Origin: a virus
IMG/VR virus record: IMGVR_UViG_3300040811_001609
Span: 1 to 36,544 of that record
DNA length: 36,544 nt
Strand: one strand, 5' to 3'
The position numbers were made by a program, and so were the translations under genes. Positions 1,948-28,182 of the stretch are shown here, one piece after another. The notes below the pieces were generated by a model that was given only the letters and a program-made list of their open reading frames with translations, made no database searches and was not told the origin of the DNA. Each line of letters begins with the position of its first letter. The first letter of the stretch is position 1.

Positions 1948-4900
1948 ATGGCAACTCAGATTCAACTTAGACGAGGTACCGCCACACAACACGCAACGTT
2001 TACAGGTGCTGTGTCAGAAATTACCTTTGATACATCTAATAATACCGTTCGTGTACATGATGGGAGTACAGCTGGTGGTTATAAACTAGCAACAGAAGAT
2101 AGAGTAAATATATTAGTTAACGATAGAATGCAAGTAGCTAATGTCACAGCAGCAGTTACAGCAGCAGTTAATAACCTGGTAGAGGCAGCTCCAGGTGCAT
2201 TAGATACTTTAAACGAACTAGCAGCAGCTATCAACGATGATGCTAATTTTGCAACCACTATTAATAATAGTTTAGCAACCAAAGCTTCTAACAGTTATGT
2301 AAATTCTACCTTCTCTACATTAAACCAATTAGGCAATACTAACTCATACATTGCTAATGAATCAGTAAGAATAGATGTAGTTAATAATAATTTAACCAAT
2401 ACCAATACAGCAATACGTACATTAGTATCTGATAGACTTCAAGTATCAAATGCTAATATTACCTTTGTTACTAAAGCAAATGCAGTTTCATCTAATAACG
2501 CTATTAATGCAAGAATTAATGCAACAAATGCTAATGTTGATCAAAAATTAGGTGCAACAGCATCAGTTACTTTAACAGGTGATATAACAGGTTCAGCTTC
2601 ATTTAGTTCAAACTCTGTATCTATTGCTACTGATATTGCATCATCAGGTACCCCAACTGGTACATTTGGTTCAGCTTCAAAAGTACCTATTATTACTGTT
2701 GGCGCTGATGGTCGTATTACAAATATTTCAAACACCAATGTGGCCGGTGTTACTGATTTTTCATATGCTGCTGCTAATAATACATTTACTATCTCTACAG
2801 CAGATGGCGGCTCATTTGATGCTACTATTTCTGAATTAAATGATTATGCATTAACATCAACCGTTAATGCTACATTCTCTACACTTACTCAATTAGGTAA
2901 TACAAACTCTTATATTGCCGCTACTCAAAGTAATTTAGATACTCAAACAGCAAGAATTAACTTGTTGAATAATAATCTTACAAATACTAATACGGCGATC
3001 AGAAGTTTAATATCGGCTACTAATGCAAATGTAGATCAAAAACTTGGCGCTACTGCAGCTGTTGCGTTAACAGGTGCAGTTACTGGGTCAGCAAACTTTA
3101 GTGGAAATAGTGTTTCCATTACTACTACAGCTACATCAGATCCAACTATTACGCTAGGTGGAGATTTAACAGGGTCAGTAACATTAACCAATCTTGGAAA
3201 TGGTACACTAACAGCTGCTGTAGTAGATGATTCTCATAATCATTCAAGCTCATCTGGTGCGTTTAATGTAGGTACAGATCTAACAGTCTCTGGTGGGGAT
3301 ATTATTCTTTCTGGTACAGGTCGTATTCAAGGTATTGATACTGTATCAGCTGGTACTGACGCTACTAATAAAACATACGTAGATAACGCGGTTGCTGGGG
3401 TGGTAGATTCAGCTCCGGAAGCTCTTAATACTCTTAATGAATTAGCAGCAGCATTAGGTGATGATTCAAACTTTGCAGCTACTACAGCTACCACTCTCGG
3501 TACTAAAGCTTCAAACACATATGTTAATTCAACATTCTCTACTCTAACGCAGCTCGGTAATACCAATTCATACATTGCTACTAAAGCAGATACAACTACT
3601 CAAGTAATTGCTGGTAATGGTTTGACAGGTGGCGGGACATTAGCTGCTAACCGTACTTTAGATATCGGTGAAGGTACTGGTATTACAGTAAGTGCTGATG
3701 CAATTGCTACCAATGATAGTGAGATTGTTCACAATAACTTGAGTGGCTTTGTTGCTAATGAGCACATTGATCACTCAGGTGTTACTTTAACTGCTGGTGA
3801 TGGTTTGACAGGCGGTGGTACAATAGCAGCTTCTAGAACATTTGCTGTAGGTGCTGGTACTCTTATTGATGTAACCGCAGATGCTGTCAACGTCGATTTG
3901 TCAGAACTTTCAACATCAACAACGAACGGTGATGGTGATTATTTTGTTGTTGTAGATACTGCTAATGCTCAGAAAAAGCTAACTAAAGCTAATATTAATA
4001 TTTCTGGCTTTAATAATGATGCAGGATACTCAACTACTACAGGTACTGTTACATCTGTAGGTGTTACAGCAGGCACAGGTCTTTCAGGTGGTGGTACAGT
4101 TACAACATCTGGTTCAGTCACACTTAATGTTGATTTATCTGAATTAACAGATATGACTGCAGGTATGGTTGGTACTGATGAATTTATTGTTCTTGACGGT
4201 GGTGCTGATCGTAGAAAAGCAGCTAATGAAATTGGATTAAGTATCTTTAACAATGATGCAGGTTTCTCTACTACTACAGGTACAGTAACATCAGTAGCTA
4301 CAGGTGGTGGTTTAACTGGTGGTACTATTACTGGTTCTGGTACTATTAGCCATGCGGATACATCTTCGCAATCATCAGTTAACAATTCGGGTGCAACTGT
4401 AATTCAAGACGTTACATTAGATACGTATGGCCACGTTACAGCGCTTGCATCAAAAACTATGTCTTATTCTGATGTGGGTGCTCCTTCAACAACAGGAACA
4501 AATGCTTCTGGTACATGGGGCATTAGTATTACTGGCAGCGCTGCTAGTGCGACATCAGCAACAAGTGCAACGAGCGCTACGGACGCAACAAACGCTACAA
4601 ATTTCAATGTTGCTGCAGATAACTCGACTAACGCTACTCACTATCCTATCTTCACCGGTGGTGCAACTGGTAATCAAAGACCAAACAGTGATACAGGATT
4701 GACATATAATCCTAGCACCGGTATCCTTGCATCTGTAGATTTTAACTCAACATCTGATGAAAGATTAAAAGAAAATATTCAAACACTAGAAAATGCTTCT
4801 GAAAAAGTAAATCAACTTAGAGGTGTTTCATTTGACTGGAAAGAATCAGGTTTATCTTCTATAGGCTTAATTGCGCAAGAAGTAGAAAAAATTATACCTG

Positions 4901-9237: not shown

Positions 9238-9762
9238 ATGAGTGCTTTAAATACACAACCAGAAAATAAAAATATGTTATCCCCAACAGGTTTTCGATTT
9301 GTATTGAATCGAACACCTAATGTTAACTATTTTACATATAGTGTGCCTATCCCTACTCTCAGCCTTGGAGAGATTGACACTGAGAACCCAAACGTAAGAT
9401 TACCATTTCCAGGTGATAAACTACGTTATGAACCATTATCAATTAGATTTAGAGTTGATGAAGATTTACAAAACTATCTAGAAATTCATAACTGGTTAGT
9501 TAGTCTTGGTTATCCAGAAGATATTTTAAATCAGTCTAGTTATGCTAGAGGTGCATACAATACAAGTGGTGCAGTTTACTCAGATGCAAGTCTATTAGTG
9601 TTAACAAGTAATATGAATGTAAATCTTCGTATTAACTTTAAAAACTTATTTCCTATTTCACTTACAGAATTAAACTTTGATGCATCTTTAACTGATATCG
9701 AGTACCTTGAAGCTACAGCTACATTTAGATACTCTACATATGAGATAGAAAGAGTTACATAA
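9238..9762 (+). CDS. Tail structural protein, candidate gp3-like tail completion protein
   Basis: A 174-residue protein beginning with a short disordered lead and then SPTGFRFVLNRTPNVNYF, with alternating beta-type stretches to the end (ATFRYSTYEIERVT). Similar proteins that follow gp23 and precede uvsY/uvsW in marine T4-like phages are often listed as gp3, the tail completion and sheath stabiliser; T4 gp3 has about the same length (from memory, not a search). A tail-tube-like fold is also possible. The position between the capsid terminator and uvsY supports a virion role, but the exact identity is unproven. Confidence 0.55.
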   Translation: MSALNTQPENKNMLSPTGFRFVLNRTPNVNYFTYSVPIPTLSLGEIDTENPNVRLPFPGDKLRYEPLSIRFRVDEDLQNYLEIHNWLVSLGYPEDILNQSSYARGAYNTSGAVYSDASLLVLTSNMNVNLRINFKNLFPISLTELNFDASLTDIEYLEATATFRYSTYEIERVT

Positions 9763-9767
9763 AACAG

Positions 9768-9796
9768 TTGCACTGACTGGTGTTTAATATTATAAT
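9768..9796 (+). promoter_or_regulatory. Sigma70-like promoter upstream of uvsY
   Basis: -35 TTGCAC at 9768-9773 and -10 TATAAT at 9791-9796, spacer 17 bp. It belongs to a recurring AGTTGCACT promoter family in this window and lies just after the tail gene stop. Confidence 0.8.
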
Positions 9797-9833
9797 GAAC
9801 GTGTAGTGTTTTTAAGACTGGATATATATTATA

Positions 9834-10274
9834 ATGAATATTGAAGATATTATGGATATGTGGACTCAAGATGCAAAGATCGATGATGTTGATCTTGATC
9901 GTGAAAGCCTTGGAGTACCTAATCTCCATGCAAAGTATCTTAAGATACTATACCAGCAAAAACTTAAGCTGCGTAAACTAACCATTCAAAGAAAAACGTT
10001 AGTGAAGGTACTTACAGAGTACTACAAGGGAGATCTAAATCACCCTGAGGATCTTAAGGAGATCCAGCGAGAACCATGGTCTCGTACCATTCTCAAGCAA
10101 GATATAAATAGTTATGTAGATAGTGATGATGAAATGATTAAGCTCCTCACAAAGATTGCTTACCAAGAGGAGGTGGTGTTGTTATTGGAAGATATAATGA
10201 AAAATATAAACAATAGGACCTTCCATATTAAAAATGCAATCGAGTGGAGAAAGCTTACCAACTTCGGTATATAG
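9834..10274 (+). CDS. uvsY: Recombination mediator UvsY
   Basis: A 146-residue, charged helical protein. The pattern LHAKYLKILYQQKLKLRKL followed by KTLVKVLTEYYKGD matches T4 UvsY (137 residues: a KWLNKHS..K..L..EA..K..LKA.LDYY.G core). UvsY loads UvsX recombinase on gp32-coated single-stranded DNA. Adjacent uvsW supports the call, and uvsX lies further right. The ribosome site is weak and the start region is AT-rich (TATATTATAATG), close to the recurring motif found at genes 45 and 44. Confidence 0.85.
   Translation: MNIEDIMDMWTQDAKIDDVDLDRESLGVPNLHAKYLKILYQQKLKLRKLTIQRKTLVKVLTEYYKGDLNHPEDLKEIQREPWSRTILKQDINSYVDSDDEMIKLLTKIAYQEEVVLLLEDIMKNINNRTFHIKNAIEWRKLTNFGI
10103..10110 (+). promoter_or_regulatory. 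Possible internal late promoter for uvsW
   Basis: Exact TATAAATA inside the uvsY coding region, about 125 bp before the uvsW start. UvsW is a late protein in T4, which makes an internal late promoter plausible. The octamer is also expected a few times by chance in DNA this AT-rich. Confidence 0.35.
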
Positions 10275-15444: not shown

Positions 15445-16089
15445 ATGAAACAAATTATTTTTGGAAATCCAGTTTGGATAGAAAAAGTTGATCCTCTATT
15501 ATATGATAAACAAGAATTAATATCTGTTATTAACTATAATTATAATAAAGCACCAACAAGAAATAATTGGAAAGGTGATAATCTAAGTAGCTTACATCAT
15601 ATGTATGATGATTGGGATAATAAAGAATTTATAAAACCTGATTTTGAATCTCTTAGACCATTATATGAAAAACATGTAAGTAATTTTTTTAGAGAAACTA
15701 ATGTAAAACCATGTGAGTACTCAATTGATATTGTAAATTATACAGTTATTAATAAAGACCAATATATGTCTGCTCATGAACATATAGCTGATAATACTTT
15801 TGCTTTTGTTCATTACATTAGTTTTGATAGAGAGAGTCATTACCCTCTTGTATTTCATAATGACTTTATAGGTCGTAAATTTATAAAAAATAATAACTTT
15901 GCAGATAAATTTGAAAAAAACAATGAAAATTTTATGATATTTCTTGAAAAATGGGTGCCTTATTTTAATGAAGATGATATAATAATCTTTCCTGCATGGT
16001 TAAGTCATAGTGTAGAAAATTTATTTAATATTAATAAAAATACAGATAAAAATAGAATATGTATAGTTGGTAATGTAACGGTGTATTAA
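15445..16089 (+). CDS. Putative 2OG-Fe(II) oxygenase-like protein
   Basis: A 214-residue protein. Candidate iron ligands are in YMSAHEHIADNTF (H111 with E112/H113) and FPAWLSHSV (H188), with a possible 2-oxoglutarate-binding Arg in RICIVGNV (R204). The spacing fits the 2OG-FeII_Oxy_5 type common in marine phages. The substrate is unknown. Codon use is odd: Arg is AGA in six codons and CGT in one, while gp43 and gp41 mainly use CGT, and the gene is visibly more AT-rich. It is wedged between gene 46 and the deformylase gene with 2 nt before it, which suggests later insertion. Confidence 0.62.
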   Translation: MKQIIFGNPVWIEKVDPLLYDKQELISVINYNYNKAPTRNNWKGDNLSSLHHMYDDWDNKEFIKPDFESLRPLYEKHVSNFFRETNVKPCEYSIDIVNYTVINKDQYMSAHEHIADNTFAFVHYISFDRESHYPLVFHNDFIGRKFIKNNNFADKFEKNNENFMIFLEKWVPYFNEDDIIIFPAWLSHSVENLFNINKNTDKNRICIVGNVTVY

Positions 16090-16625
16090 TGATCTTAGAT
16101 TTAGTAAAACAAGACGATCCTATCCTGAAGCAGAAATGTGAACTGTTTGATTTTGACAATCCTCAAGTCGATCCAGAAAAGCTCGCTCGTGATTTAAAAG
16201 AATCAATGATTCATTATAAAGGTATTGGTCTATCCGCCTGTCAGGTAGGTTTACCATACAGAGTGTTTGTTGTTGGCGATCCAGGTGATCCAGACAATAT
16301 TAAAGTATTTTTTAATCCTCGTATCGTAGATACATCAGAAGAAGACGTATTAATTGAAGAAGGGTGTTTATCCTTTCCAGGTTTGTTTATGAAGGTAAAG
16401 CGACCAGCTAATTGTCGTATACGTTTTGCTGATCCTAGAGGTATTATTGATACACAAGTATATGATGATATTCCTGCTACAGCTATTCTACATGAGTATG
16501 ATCATATGGACGGTATTCTGTTCCATCGCCGTGCTAATCCTTATCATAAAGAGCAAGCAAAAAAACAGAAGAAAAAGTTAGATAAGCTACGTGCTGCTAA
16601 CAAAAAGAAGCTAAGTAAAGTATAA
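16089..16625 (+). CDS. def: Peptide deformylase
   Basis: A 178-residue protein with all three deformylase motifs: GIGLSACQ (45-52), EGCLS (91-95) and HEYDH (135-139). The metal ligands are Cys93, His135 and His139. It removes the N-formyl group from new proteins. Deformylase genes are known in marine T4-like phages, where they are thought to help host or phage protein turnover. The C-terminus has a Lys-rich extension. Its start overlaps the previous stop by one base. The next genes build and probably formylate preQ1, but no evidence links this enzyme to that. Confidence 0.95.
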   Translation: MILDLVKQDDPILKQKCELFDFDNPQVDPEKLARDLKESMIHYKGIGLSACQVGLPYRVFVVGDPGDPDNIKVFFNPRIVDTSEEDVLIEEGCLSFPGLFMKVKRPANCRIRFADPRGIIDTQVYDDIPATAILHEYDHMDGILFHRRANPYHKEQAKKQKKKLDKLRAANKKKLSKV

Positions 16626-16669: not shown

Positions 16670-17563
16670 ATGTCCCCTAAAGAATACGCTTATTCTGAAA
16701 TCTTTTACTCTATGCAGGGTGAAGGAAAATATACAGGTGAACCAACAGCATGGCTAAGGTTCTTTCTCTGTAACTTACAGTGTGATGGTTTTGGACAAAA
16801 AGATCCAACCGACCCATCTACTTACAAACTTCCATATCAAGATGTAAATGTAGAAGACTACGATAAGATCGAAAAGCTTCCTGTGTTCGCATATGGATGT
16901 GATTCATCATATTCGTGGTCTAAAAAGTTTAGACATCTGCAAAATAAAGCAACATCAGATGTAATTGCTGAACGTATTTTAGACTCACTTCCTAACCGTA
17001 CATTTGATAATAATATTCATATGTGCTTTACAGGTGGTGAGCCTTTGATGCGTCATGCTCAGTTAGCTGTAGTTGAAATTATGAAGTACTATGCGGATAA
17101 AGAAATTATCCCATCTATTACTTTTGAAACTAACGGTACTCAAAAACTTACAGAAGAGTTTTACGATTATTGGGAGCTTAAACAAAAACTTTCTGGTACT
17201 GAGCTGTTCTTTTCAGTAAGTCCAAAACTATGGTCTGTTGCAGGTGAGAAACGAACTAAAGCAATTAAACCACAAATAGTAGCGCAGTACCGCCGTCTAT
17301 CTCCTAACGGTCAGCTTAAATTTGTATGTAATGGTACAAAAGAAAGCTGGAACGAGATAGAAGAAGTTATTACAATGTTTAGAGAACAAGGAGTAGATTA
17401 TCCTATCTGGATCATGCCTCTTGGTGGAACTGTAGAAGGTCAGAAAGGTGAGATTGATGGTCATATTCCAGCTCACGTAATTGCTGACGAAACGTTACAG
17501 CGTGGCTATCGAGTAGCAGCTCGAGTTCATGCTTATCTCTGGGAAAATATTATTGGGAAATAA
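16670..17563 (+). CDS. queE: 7-carboxy-7-deazaguanine synthase QueE (radical SAM)
   Basis: A 297-residue protein starting with the QueE pattern EIFYSMQGEGKYTGEPTAWLRF. It converts 6-carboxytetrahydropterin to 7-carboxy-7-deazaguanine using an iron-sulfur cluster and SAM. Cluster cysteines are C34 and C38 in LCNLQC and C77 in YGCDSSYSW. The latter matches the usual CDTxxxW, but 38 residues lie between C38 and C77 where most QueE have two. TGGEP is the SAM-binding motif, and SVSPKLW matches the family. It heads a tight gene cluster for deazaguanine DNA modification. The AGGAG ribosome site lies in a possible regulatory hairpin. Confidence 0.93.
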   Translation: MSPKEYAYSEIFYSMQGEGKYTGEPTAWLRFFLCNLQCDGFGQKDPTDPSTYKLPYQDVNVEDYDKIEKLPVFAYGCDSSYSWSKKFRHLQNKATSDVIAERILDSLPNRTFDNNIHMCFTGGEPLMRHAQLAVVEIMKYYADKEIIPSITFETNGTQKLTEEFYDYWELKQKLSGTELFFSVSPKLWSVAGEKRTKAIKPQIVAQYRRLSPNGQLKFVCNGTKESWNEIEEVITMFREQGVDYPIWIMPLGGTVEGQKGEIDGHIPAHVIADETLQRGYRVAARVHAYLWENIIGK

Positions 17564-17564
17564 A

Positions 17565-18014
17565 ATGGCAAAATATTATAGTACAAAACATTACGGGCAT
17601 AATATTGGCTTATCAGCTGTCTTCCGTCAACCTAATGCTGATCATTCTCACTGTCATCTATTACACGGTTATAGTCTAGCGTTCACATTTACCTTTGGTT
17701 GTGATGAACTAGACAATAAAAACTGGGCTGTAGACTTTGGAGGACTAAAACCTTTAAAAGCTTGGCTCGAAGATAGTTTTGATCATAAAGTAGCTGTAGA
17801 TAAAGCAGATCCTTTTCTAGAAGAGTTGCAAAAACTAGAAGCGTTAGGTCTAGCCGAACTTAGAATCTTTGATGGTGTTGGTGCAGAAAAATTTGCAGAG
17901 CACGCATTTAGATTTGCAGATATGCTTGTGCGTGATATTACAGACAATCGTTGTTATTGTGTGCGGTGTGAGTGTGCTGAGCACGGTGCTAACTCAGCAA
18001 TCTATGAGGAGTAA
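17565..18014 (+). CDS. queD: 6-carboxytetrahydropterin synthase QueD (divergent metal site)
   Basis: A 149-residue protein from the ATG 1 nt after the queE stop; an upstream ATG at 17529 lies inside queE and is disfavoured. It is expected to convert dihydroneopterin triphosphate to 6-carboxytetrahydropterin. The catalytic Cys region is HCHLLHGYS (C30, H34), FDHKVAV supplies the Asp-His pair, and AEHGANSAIYE the C-terminal Glu. Compared with E. coli QueD, two of three zinc histidines are replaced (F20 and Y36 in place of AAH and HGH). Nearby H12, H27, H29 and H31 could substitute. Similar variants may exist in alphaproteobacteria (from memory). Confidence 0.87.
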   Translation: MAKYYSTKHYGHNIGLSAVFRQPNADHSHCHLLHGYSLAFTFTFGCDELDNKNWAVDFGGLKPLKAWLEDSFDHKVAVDKADPFLEELQKLEALGLAELRIFDGVGAEKFAEHAFRFADMLVRDITDNRCYCVRCECAEHGANSAIYEE

Positions 18015-18016
18015 TT

Positions 18017-18700
18017 ATGAGTTTTAGTGAAGTAATTAAAGCGCGTCTAGATGACGCTAATATTCGTTATTGGGCAGGAGATAATATCTCTGAAGTATTA
18101 CAAGCTGGTGATAAAGAAAAAATTATCGATGATGCAGCTGAGCAGTTTGAAAAAGTGCTTGACTCTCTATTAATAGACCGCTATAATGATCCTAATAGTA
18201 TGGGAACGGCGAGACGTCTAGCTAAAATGTATGTAAACGAAATTATGTCAGGTCGTTATGATCCAGCGCCTAATGCTACTGCATTTCCTAATGAAGGTGA
18301 AGATCGTTATACAGGTATGCTTGTAGTACGTTCTGAACTTAAGTCTATGTGTTCTCACCATCACCAACCAGTAACTGGTGTTGCTTATATTGGTATTATT
18401 CCTGGTAATAAAGTTATTGGTTTATCTAAGTATACTCGTATTGCGCAATGGTGTGCTCGTCGAGGTACTCTACAAGAAGAACTTTGCAACGATATTGCTC
18501 GTGAGATTCGTAAAGCAACTGATAGTGAAGATGTAGCGGTTTATATTCAAGCTACTCATGGTTGTTGTGAGAATAGAGGTATTAGTGCTCATAGTTCCCT
18601 TACTCAAACTACTGTACTACATGGTGAGTTTAATAATGGTGATGTTAAGAAGGAGTTTTTTGATAATGTTAAATTGCAACAGGAGTTTGCGCCACGATGA
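18017..18700 (+). CDS. folE: GTP cyclohydrolase I FolE
   Basis: A 227-residue protein of the standard FolE length. It opens GTP to 7,8-dihydroneopterin triphosphate, the first step of the deazaguanine pathway. Zinc ligands are C112 and H115 in SMCSHHHQPV and C183 in THGCCENRG, and IGLSKYTRIAQWCARR is the family signature. Placement between queD and dpdA indicates use for base modification rather than folate. It starts 2 nt after queD, and its stop overlaps the next start (ATGA). Confidence 0.96.
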   Translation: MSFSEVIKARLDDANIRYWAGDNISEVLQAGDKEKIIDDAAEQFEKVLDSLLIDRYNDPNSMGTARRLAKMYVNEIMSGRYDPAPNATAFPNEGEDRYTGMLVVRSELKSMCSHHHQPVTGVAYIGIIPGNKVIGLSKYTRIAQWCARRGTLQEELCNDIAREIRKATDSEDVAVYIQATHGCCENRGISAHSSLTQTTVLHGEFNNGDVKKEFFDNVKLQQEFAPR

Positions 18701-19479
18701 AAATTGCACATGAAGCACCGCTGAGTATCTTTGATCAAGTACAAGAGTTAACCGATTATGATTATGCTCTGGTGCATCTGTTTGAAGAGAATGAAGAGTA
18801 TTATAATAAATTTGTAGAAGCTCGTGATAAAGGTAGAGAAATTATTCTAGATAATTCTATCTTTGAACTCGGTACAGCTTGGGATAGTGATCGTTTTGCT
18901 TATTGGGTAGAGAAACTGAAACCTACTTGGTATATTGTACCAGATGTTTTAGATAATAAAAATGGTACTATTGATAGCTTTGATGCTTTTGTAGAGAAAT
19001 ACCCTGGTTTACCTGGAAAGCGTATTGCTGTAGCTCAAGGTTCAACATATGAAGAGTTGGTTGAATGTTATGAGTATTTGGCATATCATCATAAAGTAGA
19101 TAAAGTTGCTCTATCGTTTAACCATCCATTCTTTCAAGATATTGGATCAAAGAACAGATACTTTAATATGATGAATGGACGTCAATATACACTTGCTAAG
19201 ATGTTAGAAGAGAACGTTATCAATAAAAATAAGCCTCATCACTTATTAGGTTGTGGTCTACCTCAAGAGTTTCATCATTATAAAGGTTATAACTGGATTG
19301 ATTCTCTCGATACATCTAATCCTGTAATGCATGGCATTAAAAATATTCGTTATTTAGATTATGGTTTGGATAATAAAGAATCATTAAAAATGTTTACTAT
19401 TATGGATGATAATGTTCTTGCATCTTGGGATGATATAGCTTATAATATAGAGAAGTTTAAGGAGTTCTGTCGTGTCTAG
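18697..19479 (+). CDS. dpdA: DpdA-type DNA-guanine transglycosylase (7-deazaguanine insertion)
   Basis: A 260-residue TGT-like protein. DpdA enzymes swap guanine in DNA for a 7-deazaguanine base. Residues matching the TGT fold: LDNSIFELG (D52, general acid/base position), VPDVLDN (82-87), AVAQGSTYEE, HLLGCGLPQEF (the GGLxxGE-like loop), and IDSLDTSNP, where D205 aligns with the TGT nucleophile. No CxCxxC zinc motif is present, and it is shorter than tRNA-TGTs. Size and motifs suggest one of the phage subfamilies, but which one needs a search. The ATGA overlap with folE indicates coupled translation. Confidence 0.85.
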   Translation: MKIAHEAPLSIFDQVQELTDYDYALVHLFEENEEYYNKFVEARDKGREIILDNSIFELGTAWDSDRFAYWVEKLKPTWYIVPDVLDNKNGTIDSFDAFVEKYPGLPGKRIAVAQGSTYEELVECYEYLAYHHKVDKVALSFNHPFFQDIGSKNRYFNMMNGRQYTLAKMLEENVINKNKPHHLLGCGLPQEFHHYKGYNWIDSLDTSNPVMHGIKNIRYLDYGLDNKESLKMFTIMDDNVLASWDDIAYNIEKFKEFCRV

Positions 19480-20002
19480 ATGGGTTGCGTTGTTTTCGCA
19501 AACTGGATCAGAGATTGTTGAGATAGCTGAGCATCTAGGTGTTTGGCCTTCTCATATATTAACTAATAATAGTAATATAGATAAAATTAATCCTAAACTT
19601 CATAATAAAATTACTGTAATGTCTCATAACGGCATTGAAGAGACATTAGAGTATATGAATGAATATTCAGGTAATACTTTTGTTACTTTACATGGTTATT
19701 TACGTATATTAAGTCCTAAAGTGTGTAATACAGGTTTACAAATCTATAACGGTCACCCAGCATACATCTCAGAATATCCTGAACTTAAAGGAAAAGATCC
19801 TCAAGAAAGAACTTGGGAAAATATTGAAAAGTATCCTTTAATTGGCTCTACAGTGCATAAAGTTGTAGCTGAAGTTGATTCTGGGGCATTAGAGAGAGAA
19901 TGGATTGTAGAAAATACTTGCACTTCGAAGGAAGAAGTATATAATACATTAAGGAAGACATCTTTAGAAGCATGGCTTTATTTCTTGAAAGGTAAATTAT
20001 GA
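19472..20002 (+). CDS. dpdN: Formyltransferase, DpdN-like (predicted dPreQ1 formyltransferase)
   Basis: A 176-residue GART/PurN-type formyltransferase. The N-H-D catalytic set is visible: N93 and H95 in IYNGHPAYISEYPELKG and D136 in STVHKVVAEVDSGAL. FVTLHGYLRILSP matches the family's core strand. Among phage deazaguanine genes, a formyltransferase named DpdN is predicted to formylate preQ1 in DNA, and location directly after dpdA supports this. A purN-like purine role is the alternative but fits the neighbours less well. The start is a GTG 8 nt inside dpdA, and the stop overlaps the next ATG. Confidence 0.82.
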   Translation: MSRWVALFSQTGSEIVEIAEHLGVWPSHILTNNSNIDKINPKLHNKITVMSHNGIEETLEYMNEYSGNTFVTLHGYLRILSPKVCNTGLQIYNGHPAYISEYPELKGKDPQERTWENIEKYPLIGSTVHKVVAEVDSGALEREWIVENTCTSKEEVYNTLRKTSLEAWLYFLKGKL

Positions 20003-20361
20003 GCAAAAAAGATAAAACGTTTTTCGAAACTTTGTCTATTGACGAGTCAACAGGTGATGTTGGGTCTTTAACTATAGATCTATCTGATACACAGACTATC
20101 AATATCGGTGAGATTGAAGAGACGGGTGAGTCTAGACCTAATCATTACAGTCAAGATCCAAACTCTGTAGAATGTATCACTGTTATTAAGCAGCTTTGTA
20201 AAGAACATCAAAACGATCCTTTTACAGATTATAATCGTTATCAAGCGTTTAAGTATTTGTGGCGTCTAGGTAAGAAAGATGATGTATTGTTTGATTTAAA
20301 TAAAGCAATTACTTTTTTAGAGTTTGCACGGGACGCATTGGAGGAAGAACGAAATGGATGA
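19999..20361 (+). CDS. DUF3310 family protein
   Basis: A 120-residue protein. The C-terminal ~65 residues match DUF3310: RPNHYSQDPNSVECITVI, then RYQAFKYLWRLGKKDD and DLNKAITFLEFA. This small family is widespread in phages, often loosely called a nucleotide kinase, but its function is unsettled. The N-terminal ~50 residues are an acidic extension. It overlaps dpdN by 4 nt and queF by 8 nt, so it sits inside the translationally coupled deazaguanine cluster, which hints at a linked job. Confidence 0.82.
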   Translation: MSKKDKTFFETLSIDESTGDVGSLTIDLSDTQTINIGEIEETGESRPNHYSQDPNSVECITVIKQLCKEHQNDPFTDYNRYQAFKYLWRLGKKDDVLFDLNKAITFLEFARDALEEERNG

Positions 20362-21286
20362 AATTGAAAAGATTGCTAGTAAGGTACTAGGTAAAACATC
20401 AGACGGTAAGACGATGATGCGTTATGAAACGCCTGATGAAGTAGATTCGGATCAACTTGTAGGAGTTCCACGTCATCTTAACCGTACACAATATGGTATT
20501 AGTAATGATGGTACAGAGCTATTTAATGGTATCGATACTTGGAATGGTTATGAGTTTAGTTGTCTTTTAGATAATGGTTTTCCTGTATCAGGTCTAATTC
20601 GTTGGTCTTATCCTTCTGAATCAGAATGTATTGTTGAATCTAAGTCAGCAAAATTATATCTAAACTCTTATAATATGGCTAAGATGGGTGCTACTGTTGA
20701 AGAAGTAATTGCTAATGTTGAAGAGCAAGTACAAAAAGATATGGCTCCTATTCTCGGTCTTCGATATGATGATCAATTAATAGTTTGTCTTCATATGAAT
20801 GAAGAGTATACAGCTCGTCCTGTAACAGGTACTTTTATGCCACTAGAAGAAATCGTAGATGTAACTTCTATTGAGTTTGATCACTACAATGAAGATCCTG
20901 ATATCTTAAAACTTGTTGTTAACGATACAGGTCGTCCAGTTAAATATCAATCTAAATCTCTTCGCTCTAATTGTCGAGTAACTAATCAACCTGATTGGGG
21001 CGATATCTATATTCATATCGAAGGTGATAAAGTACCAACACCTGAATCGCTATTACAGTATATTGTAAGTATGCGTAAAGAGAATCACTTCCACGAAGAG
21101 ATTTGTGAATGCGTGTATAAACGTTTACATGACAAGTTTGGTCCTGATGAACTAATGGTTACCTGTTTGTATACACGTCGTGGTGGTATCGATATTAATC
21201 CTGTACGTGCAAGTAGTCCTCAACTATTGCATGCACAACCGATTACTGATGCATATAACTTAACTGATAAAACTATGCGTCAATAA
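20354..21286 (+). CDS. queF: preQ0 reductase QueF (two-domain type)
   Basis: A 310-residue NADPH-dependent 7-cyano-7-deazaguanine reductase making preQ1 from preQ0. It is the long, two-domain type like E. coli QueF. Seen: VPRHLNRTQYGI, ESKSAKLYLNS (95-105, substrate binding), C207 in RSNCRVTNQPDWG (thioimide-forming Cys) with D214, HFHEE (H247, E248), and YTRRGGIDINP near the end. The start chosen follows GGAGG by 9 nt; an in-frame ATG at 20324 would add ten residues. QueF shows that the pathway goes past preQ0 to preQ1. Confidence 0.96.
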   Translation: MDEIEKIASKVLGKTSDGKTMMRYETPDEVDSDQLVGVPRHLNRTQYGISNDGTELFNGIDTWNGYEFSCLLDNGFPVSGLIRWSYPSESECIVESKSAKLYLNSYNMAKMGATVEEVIANVEEQVQKDMAPILGLRYDDQLIVCLHMNEEYTARPVTGTFMPLEEIVDVTSIEFDHYNEDPDILKLVVNDTGRPVKYQSKSLRSNCRVTNQPDWGDIYIHIEGDKVPTPESLLQYIVSMRKENHFHEEICECVYKRLHDKFGPDELMVTCLYTRRGGIDINPVRASSPQLLHAQPITDAYNLTDKTMRQ

Positions 21287-21323
21287 GTGGTTCATGAAAG
21301 CTAACCACTCTAAAAAACATACC
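21286..21323 (+). promoter_or_regulatory. Candidate preQ1-I riboswitch in front of queC-yhhQ
   Basis: AGTGG (21286-21290) pairs with CCACT (21305-21309). The loop begins TTC, then ATG (21294-21296), and the tail is CTAAAAAACAT. ATG can pair with CAT (21318-21320), forming the H-type pseudoknot of preQ1-I aptamers. The B. subtilis aptamer has AGAGG/CCUCU, loop UUCUAG and tail AUAAAAAACUA; here the pseudoknot bases differ but still pair, which is covariation-like. It begins on the last base of the queF stop. Type assignment is by eye. Confidence 0.72.
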
Positions 21324-21346
21324 GCTTTCAATCTTGGAGTACTAAA

Positions 21347-22162
21347 ATGAAAAATATTGTTGTTTCTCTTTCCGGAGGAATGGATTCCTCTACTTTACTT
21401 CTTCGCTCTATTGCGGAGGTCGGTGCAGAAAATGTTACTGCTCTTTCTATGAATTATGGTCAAAAACATGTATGTGAACTAGAACGTGCACAACAATTAG
21501 TTGACTATTTGGCTGAAAGAGGCCATAATATTAGATATCAAGTAATCAAGCTTGATGGTATTACTGAGCTGTTATCATCAGCTCTAGTAAGCGGAGGTGA
21601 TGATGTTCCAGAAGGACATTATGCCGAAGATAATATGAAGCAAACTGTTGTACCTAACCGTAATAAGATCTTTGCTTCGTTAGTGCAAGCTGTAGCTCTT
21701 TCTGTAGTAAAAAATACTGATGAAGAAACTGCAATTGCATTAGGCATTCACGCTGGTGACCATGCAATCTATCCTGATTGTCGTCAAGAGTTCCGTGATG
21801 CTGATGATGAAGCATTCCGTATTGGTAATTGGGATGCAGATAAAGTAACTTACTTTACACCTTATCTAGAAGGTGATAAGTTTGATATTCTAAAAGATGG
21901 TGAAGTACTTTGCGAGCAGCTAGGTCTAGACTTCGATGATGTTTATATCCGTACAAACACCTCATATAAGCCGTTGCAAATTGACGGTGTATGGTTCTCT
22001 GATTATAAGAGTTCCTCTTCTGTTGAACGTATTGAAGCGTTCATTAAACTAGGACGGCCAGACCCTGTTGCTTATGCTGATGAGACTGGACCGGTTAATT
22101 ATGATACAGCTCGAGTACATGCTGAACAGGTACTCAAGGAGTATCAAAGTAACGCAGCATGA
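21347..22162 (+). CDS. queC: preQ0 synthase QueC (lacking zinc cysteines)
   Basis: A 271-residue PP-loop ATPase that turns 7-carboxy-7-deazaguanine into preQ0. The ATP loop is SGGMDSS (9-15), followed by ALSMNYGQKH and VVPNRN, both typical. Usual QueC carries four zinc-binding Cys near the C-terminus (SCY...CGxCxxC). The corresponding segment here reads TSYKPL and later FSDYKSSSSVERIEAF, with Ser or other residues in place of all four. Surrounding residues (VERxEAF, GRPDPVAY) are conserved, so this looks like substitution rather than truncation. The gene follows the candidate preQ1 riboswitch and a GGAG site. Confidence 0.92.
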   Translation: MKNIVVSLSGGMDSSTLLLRSIAEVGAENVTALSMNYGQKHVCELERAQQLVDYLAERGHNIRYQVIKLDGITELLSSALVSGGDDVPEGHYAEDNMKQTVVPNRNKIFASLVQAVALSVVKNTDEETAIALGIHAGDHAIYPDCRQEFRDADDEAFRIGNWDADKVTYFTPYLEGDKFDILKDGEVLCEQLGLDFDDVYIRTNTSYKPLQIDGVWFSDYKSSSSVERIEAFIKLGRPDPVAYADETGPVNYDTARVHAEQVLKEYQSNAA

Positions 22163-22173
22163 AAGGGAAATAA

Positions 22174-22782
22174 ATGCTGAAACAAATGTTTGACTTTAGT
22201 AGAATGGATAAGTCTCTGATGTGGAAACTTGTCCTTCTACATCTTTTCATTATTGGTTTGTCCAACTGGGCAGTTCAGTTTGGTGGTACTCTACCATTTA
22301 CTGATCTACAATTTACCTGGGGTATGTTTACCTTTCCATTTATTGTAGTTGCAACTGACTTAACAGTACGACTATCTAACAAATATAATGCACGCGGTGT
22401 TGTAGCAATTGCGTTTATTCCTGCAATTATTATCAGCTCTTATATTGCAACTCCTATGATTGGTTTTGCTAGTGCATTTGCTTATTTGTTAGGTCAACTA
22501 TTGGATGTATCTATCTTCCAACGTATTCGCGAAAAGATGACTGAGGTGTGGTGGGTAGCACCTGCTATCTCTACAGTCTTCGCTAATATTCTAGATACGT
22601 ATGCATTCTTCTGGGCAGCCTTTGCATATAGTGATGATCCGTTTATGAGTGTACATTGGCTTGAAATTGCTTCTGTAGATGTTGTATTTAAGATTATTAC
22701 TTCATTTGTATTGTTCTTGCCTGTTTATGGTGTACTACTAGCATGGCTTCGTAAGCGTGTAGATGTAGGTACTGGTGCTTAA
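22174..22782 (+). CDS. yhhQ: Queuosine-precursor transporter, YhhQ family
   Basis: A 202-residue membrane protein with about six hydrophobic segments. Family features are FTFPFIVVATDLTVRLSNKY, YLLGQLLDVSIFQRIREK, and PAISTVFANILDTYAFF. YhhQ proteins import preQ0 or preQ1 through the inner membrane. Here it could supplement phage synthesis with base salvaged by the cell. It lies 11 nt after queC, behind an AAGGG site, and is probably under the same riboswitch. Confidence 0.92.
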   Translation: MLKQMFDFSRMDKSLMWKLVLLHLFIIGLSNWAVQFGGTLPFTDLQFTWGMFTFPFIVVATDLTVRLSNKYNARGVVAIAFIPAIIISSYIATPMIGFASAFAYLLGQLLDVSIFQRIREKMTEVWWVAPAISTVFANILDTYAFFWAAFAYSDDPFMSVHWLEIASVDVVFKIITSFVLFLPVYGVLLAWLRKRVDVGTGA

Positions 22783-24709: not shown

Positions 24710-25642
24710 GAAGAGTTTCTCTGGGTAGAAAAATACCGTCCGAAAACTATTAAAGATTGTATTTTACCAGACAATCTTAAACAAACGTTTCAAGAGTTTG
24801 TAAATCAAGATAACATTCCTAATCTACTTCTAACTGGCGGACCTGGTGTAGGTAAGACTACAGTGGCAAAAGCTATGTTAGAAGAGATTAGAGCTGATTA
24901 TATCGTTATTAACGGTAGTATGAATGGTAATATTGATACGTTGCGTAACGAGATTAAAGACTTTGCTTCTACAATGTCATTTACATCTGGACGTAAATAT
25001 GTTATTCTTGACGAAGCTGATTATCTAAATCCTCAATCTACTCAACCTGCTCTTCGTAACTTTATGGAAGAGTTTAGTAAGAACTGTGGATTTATTCTTA
25101 CTTGCAACTTTAAGAATCGTATCATTGAACCATTACATTCTCGCTGCAGCGTAGTAGAGTTTAATATTCCTAAAGTAGAAAAGCAGCAAATGGCTGCTGA
25201 CTTCTTTACTCGCTGTAGAGATATTCTTGATATTGAAAAGATAGAATATGATAAGAGAGTATTAGCTGAAGTTGTAAAAAATCATTTTCCTGATTTTCGT
25301 AGAGTGTTAAATGAACTTCAACGCTATAGTGCTACTGGTAAAATTGATACAGGTATATTGGCTAACACTGGCGAGTCTTCTATTGAAGAGTTAGTAAGTC
25401 ACTTAAAAGCTAAATCATTTAGCGAAATGCGTAAATGGACAGCCCAGAATAGTGATATAGATACAGCTTCTACATTACGCAAATTATATGATGTGGCTAA
25501 TGAAAAAATGAAGCCCCATTCAGTTGCTCAACTAGTATTAATTCTTGCAGATTATCAATATAAAGCAGCGTTTGTTGCTGACCAAGAAATTAATTTAGTA
25601 GCTTGTATGACTGAAATAATGGCAAACTGTGAGTTTGATTAA
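24707..25642 (+). CDS. 44: Clamp loader large subunit gp44
   Basis: A 311-residue AAA+ ATPase. LWVEKYRPKTIKDCILP is the family start. Walker A is GGPGVGKT (44-51), Walker B ILDEADYL (100-107), sensor TCNFKNRIIEPLHSRC with the SRC arginine finger. T4 gp44 has 319 residues. With gp62 it opens and loads the gp45 clamp. Its stop overlaps the next start by one base (TAATG). In T4 gene 62 follows directly; here an oxygenase gene separates them. Confidence 0.97.
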   Translation: MEEFLWVEKYRPKTIKDCILPDNLKQTFQEFVNQDNIPNLLLTGGPGVGKTTVAKAMLEEIRADYIVINGSMNGNIDTLRNEIKDFASTMSFTSGRKYVILDEADYLNPQSTQPALRNFMEEFSKNCGFILTCNFKNRIIEPLHSRCSVVEFNIPKVEKQQMAADFFTRCRDILDIEKIEYDKRVLAEVVKNHFPDFRRVLNELQRYSATGKIDTGILANTGESSIEELVSHLKAKSFSEMRKWTAQNSDIDTASTLRKLYDVANEKMKPHSVAQLVLILADYQYKAAFVADQEINLVACMTEIMANCEFD

Positions 25643-26235
25643 TGTACAAATTATATCCAGATAATTTTAACGGTTATTGGTATTTTACAATTAAGAATTG
25701 TTTTTCTGATCAACAACTAGAAGATATTGAAAAATTAATAAAACAATCTTCTCCTGAAGAAAAAGGTACATTGTCTAAAGGTGACGATACTCTAATTAGA
25801 ACATCGACTATTAGATGGGTTCACGCAAATAATCAATCACTATCAGAATTATATCAAACATTAATAGAGTTAATACATAGAGCAAATAATACTCATTTTA
25901 AATTTAGTTTAACTCATCTTGAACCTCTTCAGTATACTGAGTATTACGGTCGTGACAATGGTCATTATGATTTTCATGTAGACGATACTATAATGCTTAC
26001 ACATAATAATGAAAGCAGAAAGCTATCATTTACTCTTTTATTAAATGATCCTGAAACAGACTATGAAGGTGGTGATTTTTTATTTAGAAGAGGTGGTGGT
26101 GAAATAGAAAAAGCAGATATATCAAAAGGCGATATTATGTTTTTTGCATCACCAGTACCACATAAAGTAGATATAGTAACTAAAGGTACTCGTAAATCTT
26201 TAGTTGGATGGGTCCGTGGCCCATGTTGGAAATAA
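25642..26235 (+). CDS. Putative 2OG-Fe(II) oxygenase (PKHD/prolyl-hydroxylase-like)
   Basis: A 197-residue protein with the full facial triad: H112 and D114 in GHYDFHVDDT, H174 in SPVPHKVDIV, and 2-oxoglutarate-binding R184 in KGTRKSLVGWVRGP. EGGDFLF is the usual strand before the last His. It probably hydroxylates an unknown protein or base. Arg is mostly AGA, unlike the replication genes. It is inserted exactly between genes 44 and 62, joined to 44 by TAATG. Confidence 0.85.
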   Translation: MYKLYPDNFNGYWYFTIKNCFSDQQLEDIEKLIKQSSPEEKGTLSKGDDTLIRTSTIRWVHANNQSLSELYQTLIELIHRANNTHFKFSLTHLEPLQYTEYYGRDNGHYDFHVDDTIMLTHNNESRKLSFTLLLNDPETDYEGGDFLFRRGGGEIEKADISKGDIMFFASPVPHKVDIVTKGTRKSLVGWVRGPCWK

Positions 26236-27032: not shown

Positions 27033-27041
27033 TATATTATG
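27033..27041 (+). promoter_or_regulatory. AT-rich start-codon motif of an oxygenase gene, possible RegA operator
   Basis: TATATTATG with its ATG as the start, directly after regA. A GGTGGA ribosome site precedes it. Confidence 0.45.
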
Positions 27042-27599
27042 TTTTCTAAAAGTTTAGATGATTATATTGTAGTTGTTGAAAACGTTATTTCAAAAGAACT
27101 TAGAGAAAGTATTGTAACAGATTTAAAAAATAGTAGTTTTGTAACGCACAAATATAATGACGCTACTAATAATATAAAATATAATAATTTAAATAATCCA
27201 GAGTTTGAAATAAAATTTGATTACACAAATAAAGAATATGAAGATTTAGTATATAAATGTGTTGATGTTTATAGTAATAATATTTCGTCATTAGAAGGTG
27301 CATACTTAAGTAAAATAAGTAAACCTCGTTATAACAAATATAACAAAAATAATAATATGGAAATGCATGTAGATCATATCCATTCTCTTTTCGATGGTGA
27401 AAGAAAAGGTATACCTGCTCTCTCTATTTTAGGATTATTGAATGATGATTTTGATGGTGGTGAATTTGTAATGTGGGACGAAGATATGAAACTAAACGCT
27501 GGTGATATTATTATCTTTCCGTCTAATTTTTTATACCCACATAAAGTAAATACTATAACTAACGGTGAAAGATATTCTGTAATTAACTGGGCATGGTAA
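27039..27599 (+). CDS. Putative 2OG-Fe(II) oxygenase
   Basis: A 186-residue protein with H110 and D112 in EMHVDHIHSLF, H168 in LYPHKVNTI and R178 in NGERYSVINWAW, the complete 2OG-dioxygenase set. DDFDGGEFVMW is the typical strand. It is AT-rich and Arg is mainly AGA. The substrate is unknown. It lies between regA and the hsp20 island and has the same start motif as genes 45 and 44, so it may be under RegA control. Confidence 0.82.
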   Translation: MFSKSLDDYIVVVENVISKELRESIVTDLKNSSFVTHKYNDATNNIKYNNLNNPEFEIKFDYTNKEYEDLVYKCVDVYSNNISSLEGAYLSKISKPRYNKYNKNNNMEMHVDHIHSLFDGERKGIPALSILGLLNDDFDGGEFVMWDEDMKLNAGDIIIFPSNFLYPHKVNTITNGERYSVINWAW

Positions 27600-27708: not shown

Positions 27709-28182
27709 ATGACAGGCATAAATACACTATTCCCACGTTCATCATTCGTAGGTTTTGATCACTTATTCAATGAGTTAGAGCACGTTGCTCGTCACGCTAA
27801 TGATCATTATCCACCTCATAATATTCTAAAAACAGGTGATACAGATTATTTAATCGAATTAGCTGTGGCTGGTTTCTCTAGAGATGAACTAAACATTGAA
27901 GTAAAAGATCGTACATTAGTAATTACTGGTGAACATCTAAGTAAGGGTCGCGAGTATATTCATCGTGGTATTTCTACGAAGAAATTCAAACGCACTTTTA
28001 GGCTGTCTGAACACGTTCATGTAAACGGAGCGGATCTAGTGGACGGGGTATTGTCAGTAGAGCTGAAATATGTCGTACCCGAAGAACTGCGTCCTCGTAA
28101 AATCAACATTGGTCATTACGAGGGATTATCAAATGACACAACACATACTGACAATCAACAACTACTTACAGAATCCGATTGA
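27709..28182 (+). CDS. hsp20: Small heat-shock protein, Hsp20/IbpA type
   Basis: A 157-residue protein with an N-terminal FDHLFNELEHVARH segment and an alpha-crystallin domain: YLIELAVAGFSRDELNIEVKD, LVITGEHL, then FKRTFRLSEHVHVNGADLVDGVL. The usual C-terminal I-x-I anchor appears as INI. It is an ATP-independent holdase. Hsp20 genes are a hallmark of marine T4-like phages. It has a strong AAAGGAG site and two promoter types upstream. Confidence 0.93.
   Translation: MTGINTLFPRSSFVGFDHLFNELEHVARHANDHYPPHNILKTGDTDYLIELAVAGFSRDELNIEVKDRTLVITGEHLSKGREYIHRGISTKKFKRTFRLSEHVHVNGADLVDGVLSVELKYVVPEELRPRKINIGHYEGLSNDTTHTDNQQLLTESD

Follow-up and report, generated by a model that had tools for sequence, protein, structure and literature searches.

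The window (the whole stretch of DNA analysed here) is a 36.5-kb IMG/VR viral record that carries T4-type genes for Gp23, a gp22-like scaffold, UvsY, UvsW, SbcC/D-like proteins, clamp and clamp-loader parts and polymerase B. It also carries a full 7-deazaguanine cluster on the plus strand, which consists of queE, queD and folE of the same pathway (16670–18700), a gene for a DpdA-like DNA guanine transglycosylase (18697–19479), a gene for a formyltransferase-like protein (19472–20002), queF (20324–21286; Pfam QueF_N/QueF), queC, which encodes 7-cyano-7-deazaguanine synthase (21347–22162; Pfam QueC, 1e-33), and a gene for a yhhQ-type preQ0/preQ1 importer (22174–22782; Pfam Vut_1). The protein encoded at 18697–19479 has no Pfam match and is 52% identical to the annotated DpdA of Flavobacterium phage immuto; the formyltransferase-like protein matches Pfam Formyl_trans_N and is 45% identical to its immuto homologue. 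This formyltransferase-fold protein lies between the DpdA-like gene and queF, and it could modify preQ1 further. Elsewhere the window encodes three 2OG-Fe(II) oxygenase-like proteins (15445–16089, 25642–26235 and 27039–27599), a peptide deformylase (16089–16625) and an HSP20 protein (27709–28182).

Between queF and queC lies an element that the original prediction, made from the window alone, took for a candidate preQ1-I riboswitch at 21286–21323. Its description of the locus was accurate: the stem AGTGG/CCACT, a loop that starts with TTC and an A-rich tail (TAAAAAACAT) are all present, and queF ends at 21286, queC starts at 21347 and yhhQ follows. Searches of IMG/VR with queF and queC found phages with the same intergenic element, and an alignment of 23 distinct versions supports an H-type pseudoknot on the plus strand with a 7-bp helix P1, a 6-bp helix P2 and an L3 of 14–15 nt. 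In the window the P1 5′ strand AGUGGUU (21286–21292), whose first base is shared with the queF stop codon, pairs with AACCACU (21303–21309), and the P2 5′ strand GAAAGC (21296–21301) pairs with GCUUUC (21324–21329), a strand outside the range first proposed. L1 (21293–21295) is variable and 1–3 nt long in the aligned relatives, L2 is a single U (21302) that is unchanged in all 23 sequences, and L3 (21310–21323; CUAAAAAACAUACC) crosses P1 and follows the pattern nWAA...AYACn, with A27, A28, A34, A36 and C37 (element numbering) invariant. The invariant bases group at the P1/P2 junction.

Both helices covary. In the tool's alignment P1 and P2 together are paired in 96% of cells, compared with at most 55% when the strands are slid by 1–3 columns, and none of 500 shuffles was as good; in a register set by hand to correct three members whose L3 has 15 nt, the figure is 99% for each helix, with double changes at four of the six P2 pairs. 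There are at least 10 different P2 pairings among the relatives, including GAAAGC/GCUUUC, GAAUGC/GCAUUC, AAACUC/GAGUUU, AGAGAC/GUCUUU, GAUAAC/GUUAUC, AAUAGC/GCUAUU and UAGAAC/GUUCUA, and P1 has compensated variants AGAGGUU/AACCUCU (L107), AGUGGAU/AUCCACU (L370) and AGUGAUU/AAUCACU (L398). GU pairs are in use, and RNA is therefore indicated. A covariance model built from the other 23 sequences recovered the left-out members L370 at 37.8 bits (E 7e-9) and L398 at 34.3 bits (E 9e-8). That the queC leader contains a conserved RNA pseudoknot is thus almost certain. We refer to this type as class A, defined by a 7-bp P1, a 6-bp P2 and an L3 of the form nWAA...AYAC directly 5′ of queC, all of which the window element has.

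The occurrence of class A was surveyed by pattern scans of IMG/VR that were blind to genes, followed by a structure filter. Of the 92 structured viral matches, 91 have queC downstream, the remaining one being cut by the end of its contig, and about 53 class A contigs were counted. The gene before the element is mostly queF, although queF is not adjacent in L161, L095 and L096, and yhhQ is often missing beside queC; since both of these neighbours vary, queC is the constant partner of class A. Among 84,980 species genomes scanned, the pattern matched 50 times, and no match had a convincing P1 and P2 next to queC; one bacterial match (L299) passed a loose structure filter, has no queC downstream and was taken as a chance match. 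Chance matches were likewise all that a search of cultured phages with the class A element returned. Two contigs (L093 and L094) encode QueC proteins about 85% identical to that of the window, have no class A element before queC, and carry a different gene directly upstream.

When an alignment of diverse QueC proteins was used as the query, more distant queC phages were found, and their queC leaders contain a second conserved pseudoknot, class B. Like class A it is of the H-type, lies before queC, has a P2 5′ strand that ends in C and is followed by UA(A/U), and has a P2 3′ strand that starts with G and directly follows AYAC. It differs from class A in its 5-bp P1 (AGCGU/ACGCU, AACGU/ACGUU, AGGAU/AUCCU or AGUGU/ACACU), its 3-bp P2 (RCC/GGY), its L2 of UAU and its L3 of 8–12 nt, which ends in AUACCU. 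A common origin of the two classes is only suggested by these shared features, because the class A covariance model gave no detection on class B loci. In a gene-blind scan all 116 distinct P1-forming copies of class B precede queC, while none of seven unstructured matches does. Class B loci occur in AT-rich phages, among them L386 (2937–2980), L321 (3936–3982; 18551–18597 of MW353176, the cultured Flavobacterium phage immuto) and L343–L397. The immuto genome has class B once, before a queC that is isolated, at a distance of 10 kb from the queD/queE/folE/dpdA/queF cluster. Class B has no Rfam match and was not found in 395 genomes of the phylum to which an Empedobacter genome belongs.

The position of both classes relative to the queC start codon points to translation. 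In the window the Shine-Dalgarno-like GGAG of queC (21336–21339, plus strand) begins 6 nt after P2, with similar spacing in the relatives; throughout class A such a sequence lies 3–10 nt downstream of P2, and the distance from the end of P2 to the start codon is 13–23 nt in nearly all copies. In class B this distance is mostly 18–25 nt, and no Shine-Dalgarno-like sequence was found in 105 distinct leaders. The near-constant distance in the two classes indicates control of 30S docking, and we consider it quite probable that the element controls queC translation. Several specific modes of control were considered and rejected. A nested fold of −12.4 kcal/mol, in which the P1 5′ strand pairs with the Shine-Dalgarno region of queC, is predicted for 21286–21343 and would make a switch in the group of the window; the pairing is not conserved in the relatives. 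There is no U-run after P1, as an intrinsic terminator would have. Readthrough of the queF stop codon or frameshifting is disfavoured because QueF here ends in RQ, like that of E. coli, and because the element is still present where queF is not adjacent.

The pathway context (folE, queD, queE, queF, queC, yhhQ and the DpdA-like gene) suggests preQ1, preQ0 or a relation of these as a ligand. H-type riboswitches hold their ligand at the helix junction. We propose that T4-like phages with 7-deazaguanine DNA modification genes carry, in the leader of queC, a cis-acting H-type pseudoknot whose conserved junction bases would form a pocket for preQ1, preQ0 or a close derivative, and that binding of the ligand would stabilise the pseudoknot against the ribosome-binding site. 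The stabilised pseudoknot would then set QueC translation and so match the supply of the base to DNA modification; as to the sign of control, our default guess is that it turns translation off by occluding 30S docking. The chances are about even that this is a cis-regulatory queC-leader pseudoknot, so far undescribed and absent from Rfam, through which QueC translation is set in response to a 7-deazaguanine, and the sensing step by itself we would put at even or slightly under. Three findings count against the proposal: the Shine-Dalgarno sequence lies outside the class A pseudoknot, the nested fold that would hide it is not general, and every copy is before queC and none before another gene of the pathway.

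The preQ1-I identity originally suggested for the element finds no support. PreQ1 (RF00522) is indeed the best Rfam match in the window as well as in L107 and L222, the B. subtilis aptamer has stretches similar to GNGGUUC and UAAAAAAC, and class A shares with preQ1-I a small H-type pseudoknot, an A-rich L3 and a place before queuosine-pathway genes. However, the Rfam 15 match in the window (21281–21326) scores 21.1 bits (E 4.6 for all families over the window and 0.0011 for the PreQ1 family alone) and those in L107 and L222 score 27.2 and 23.3 bits, all below the gathering score of 39 bits and so not significant; most of the scanned relatives have no reported match, and 14 of 14 control genomes also give some PreQ1 match at the same loose threshold. 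Quite apart from the score, membership fails on a defining feature. In preQ1-I riboswitches a UC or AC dinucleotide stands before the 3′ strand of P1, and its C reads and pairs with preQ1 (PMC11625349), whereas all class A members have A or U in place of this specificity C, the dinucleotide being AA in the window (A at 21304 in a 5-bp register) and AU in L370. The pseudoknot pairing first proposed, ATG (21294–21296) with CAT (21318–21320), is complementary as claimed but does not behave as a working helix: its three pairs are formed in only 64% of cells among the 23 distinct relatives, with a single double change, and a different helix covaries. Loss of this pairing in related phages had been named in advance as grounds for abandoning the idea, as had an insignificant covariance-model score combined with no binding of preQ1; the pairing is lost there, and the score is indeed insignificant. 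The A-rich 3′ tail, another preQ1-I feature, is present in the window, but L095 and L096 are examples of relatives that lack the A-run, and the preQ1-I-type P2 (L1-adjacent loop bases with the 3′ tail, across an A-rich L3 of about 8 nt), which ATG with CAT would form, is not conserved among the relatives. The extended 7-bp P1 of class A takes in the UU left unpaired in preQ1-I, the 6-bp P2 lies further 3′, L3 is 14–15 nt, and the Shine-Dalgarno sequence is not in the pseudoknot. It is therefore very improbable that the element is a true, if degenerate, member of RF00522. In the preQ1-II class a hairpin of some 7 bp, with a loop that pairs to sequence downstream, stands before a preQ1 transporter gene (PMC11625349); class A differs from it in its L1 of 1–3 nt, its lack of an extra P4 hairpin, its other conserved bases and its place before queC instead of queT, and neither preQ1-II, preQ1-III nor any other Rfam 15 riboswitch family gave a match at the element at E up to 10. 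What stands of the original prediction is a structured RNA with a regulatory role, placed before queC in a phage DNA-modification operon; covariation and the queC-only synteny support this well, and the RNA may still sense preQ1 or a related base.

The main rival is a QueC-specific protein operator, since a metabolite sensor might be expected to be reused before other genes of its pathway and only queC placement is seen. In this reading QueC or another phage protein would bind the pseudoknot and repress queC translation, much as gp32 of T4 does on the leader pseudoknot of its own gene. The tie to queC alone, which holds even for the isolated queC of phage immuto, fits such an operator, and T4-type phages offer precedents in gp32, whose target is a pseudoknot lying 67 nt before its start codon, and gp43, which binds a hairpin operator (PMC3014915). 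The T4/T2 gene 32 leader resembles class A in being a T4-type leader pseudoknot that controls translation of the next gene (PMC3014915), but class A lies mostly 13–23 nt from its start codon, precedes another gene and has no protein known to bind it. On the other side, a ligand pocket more typically gives the pattern seen here, namely two classes that diverge in sequence but keep small invariant cores at the junction, and we found no known RNA-binding role of QueC; we consider a protein operator rather unlikely, though it deserves to be taken seriously. An element that acts constitutively on translation or mRNA stability without sensing anything, as a ribosome standby site, a post-queF insulator or a nuclease block, would fit a position directly after queF in most members and directly before the ribosome-binding site. 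It would not explain why the element stays upstream of queC where queF lies elsewhere, the invariant unpaired junction bases exceed what stability needs, and the missing U-run argues against an intrinsic terminator, so that we consider this reading improbable. Finally, RNA conservation might be the by-product of an overlapping leader peptide (MKANHxKxHTAF...). In the window the open frame MKANHSKKHTAFNLGVLK (21294–21350) starts in the loop of the element and ends on the queC start, the frame is open in about half of the class A leaders, and some variable sites are third codon positions. Such a peptide is disfavoured by loss of the frame in the other half: the start is missing, the frame is another one or the frame is truncated in L024, L025, L041, L058, L095, L096, L102, L107, L161, L176, L198, L222, L370 and L398. 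P1 and P2 covary in these leaders too, and the peptide can be given next to no weight.

We thus return to a 7-deazaguanine-sensing pseudoknot as the preferred reading. In its widest form, which we put forward more tentatively and as rather less than an even prospect, classes A and B would be two subtypes of a new riboswitch class in T4-like phages of several host groups, one that senses a 7-deazaguanine, sets QueC translation, and was born and kept in viruses. A 2010 review of post-transcriptional control in T4 stated that T4 had yielded no functionally characterised riboswitch (PMC3014915), and riboswitches go unmentioned in the main paper on 7-deazaguanine DNA of phages (PMC6884629). A family of pseudoknots confined to queC would show RNA-level regulation by phages of a pathway that armours their DNA; if the widest reading is true, this would be a metabolite riboswitch that was not borrowed from a host and that matches DNA hypermodification to demand. 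The elements are compact RNAs suited to ligand-binding tests, and the presence of one subtype in a cultured phage makes the idea testable.

Other structured RNAs were seen on two of the contigs. The class A contig L161 has a strong match (about 87 bits) to the alphaproteobacterial permuted tmRNA at 9623–9881, which hints at its host group. On L386, near queC, a tRNA match at 3797–3938 is interrupted in the region of the anticodon loop by 73 inserted nt, a possible intron.
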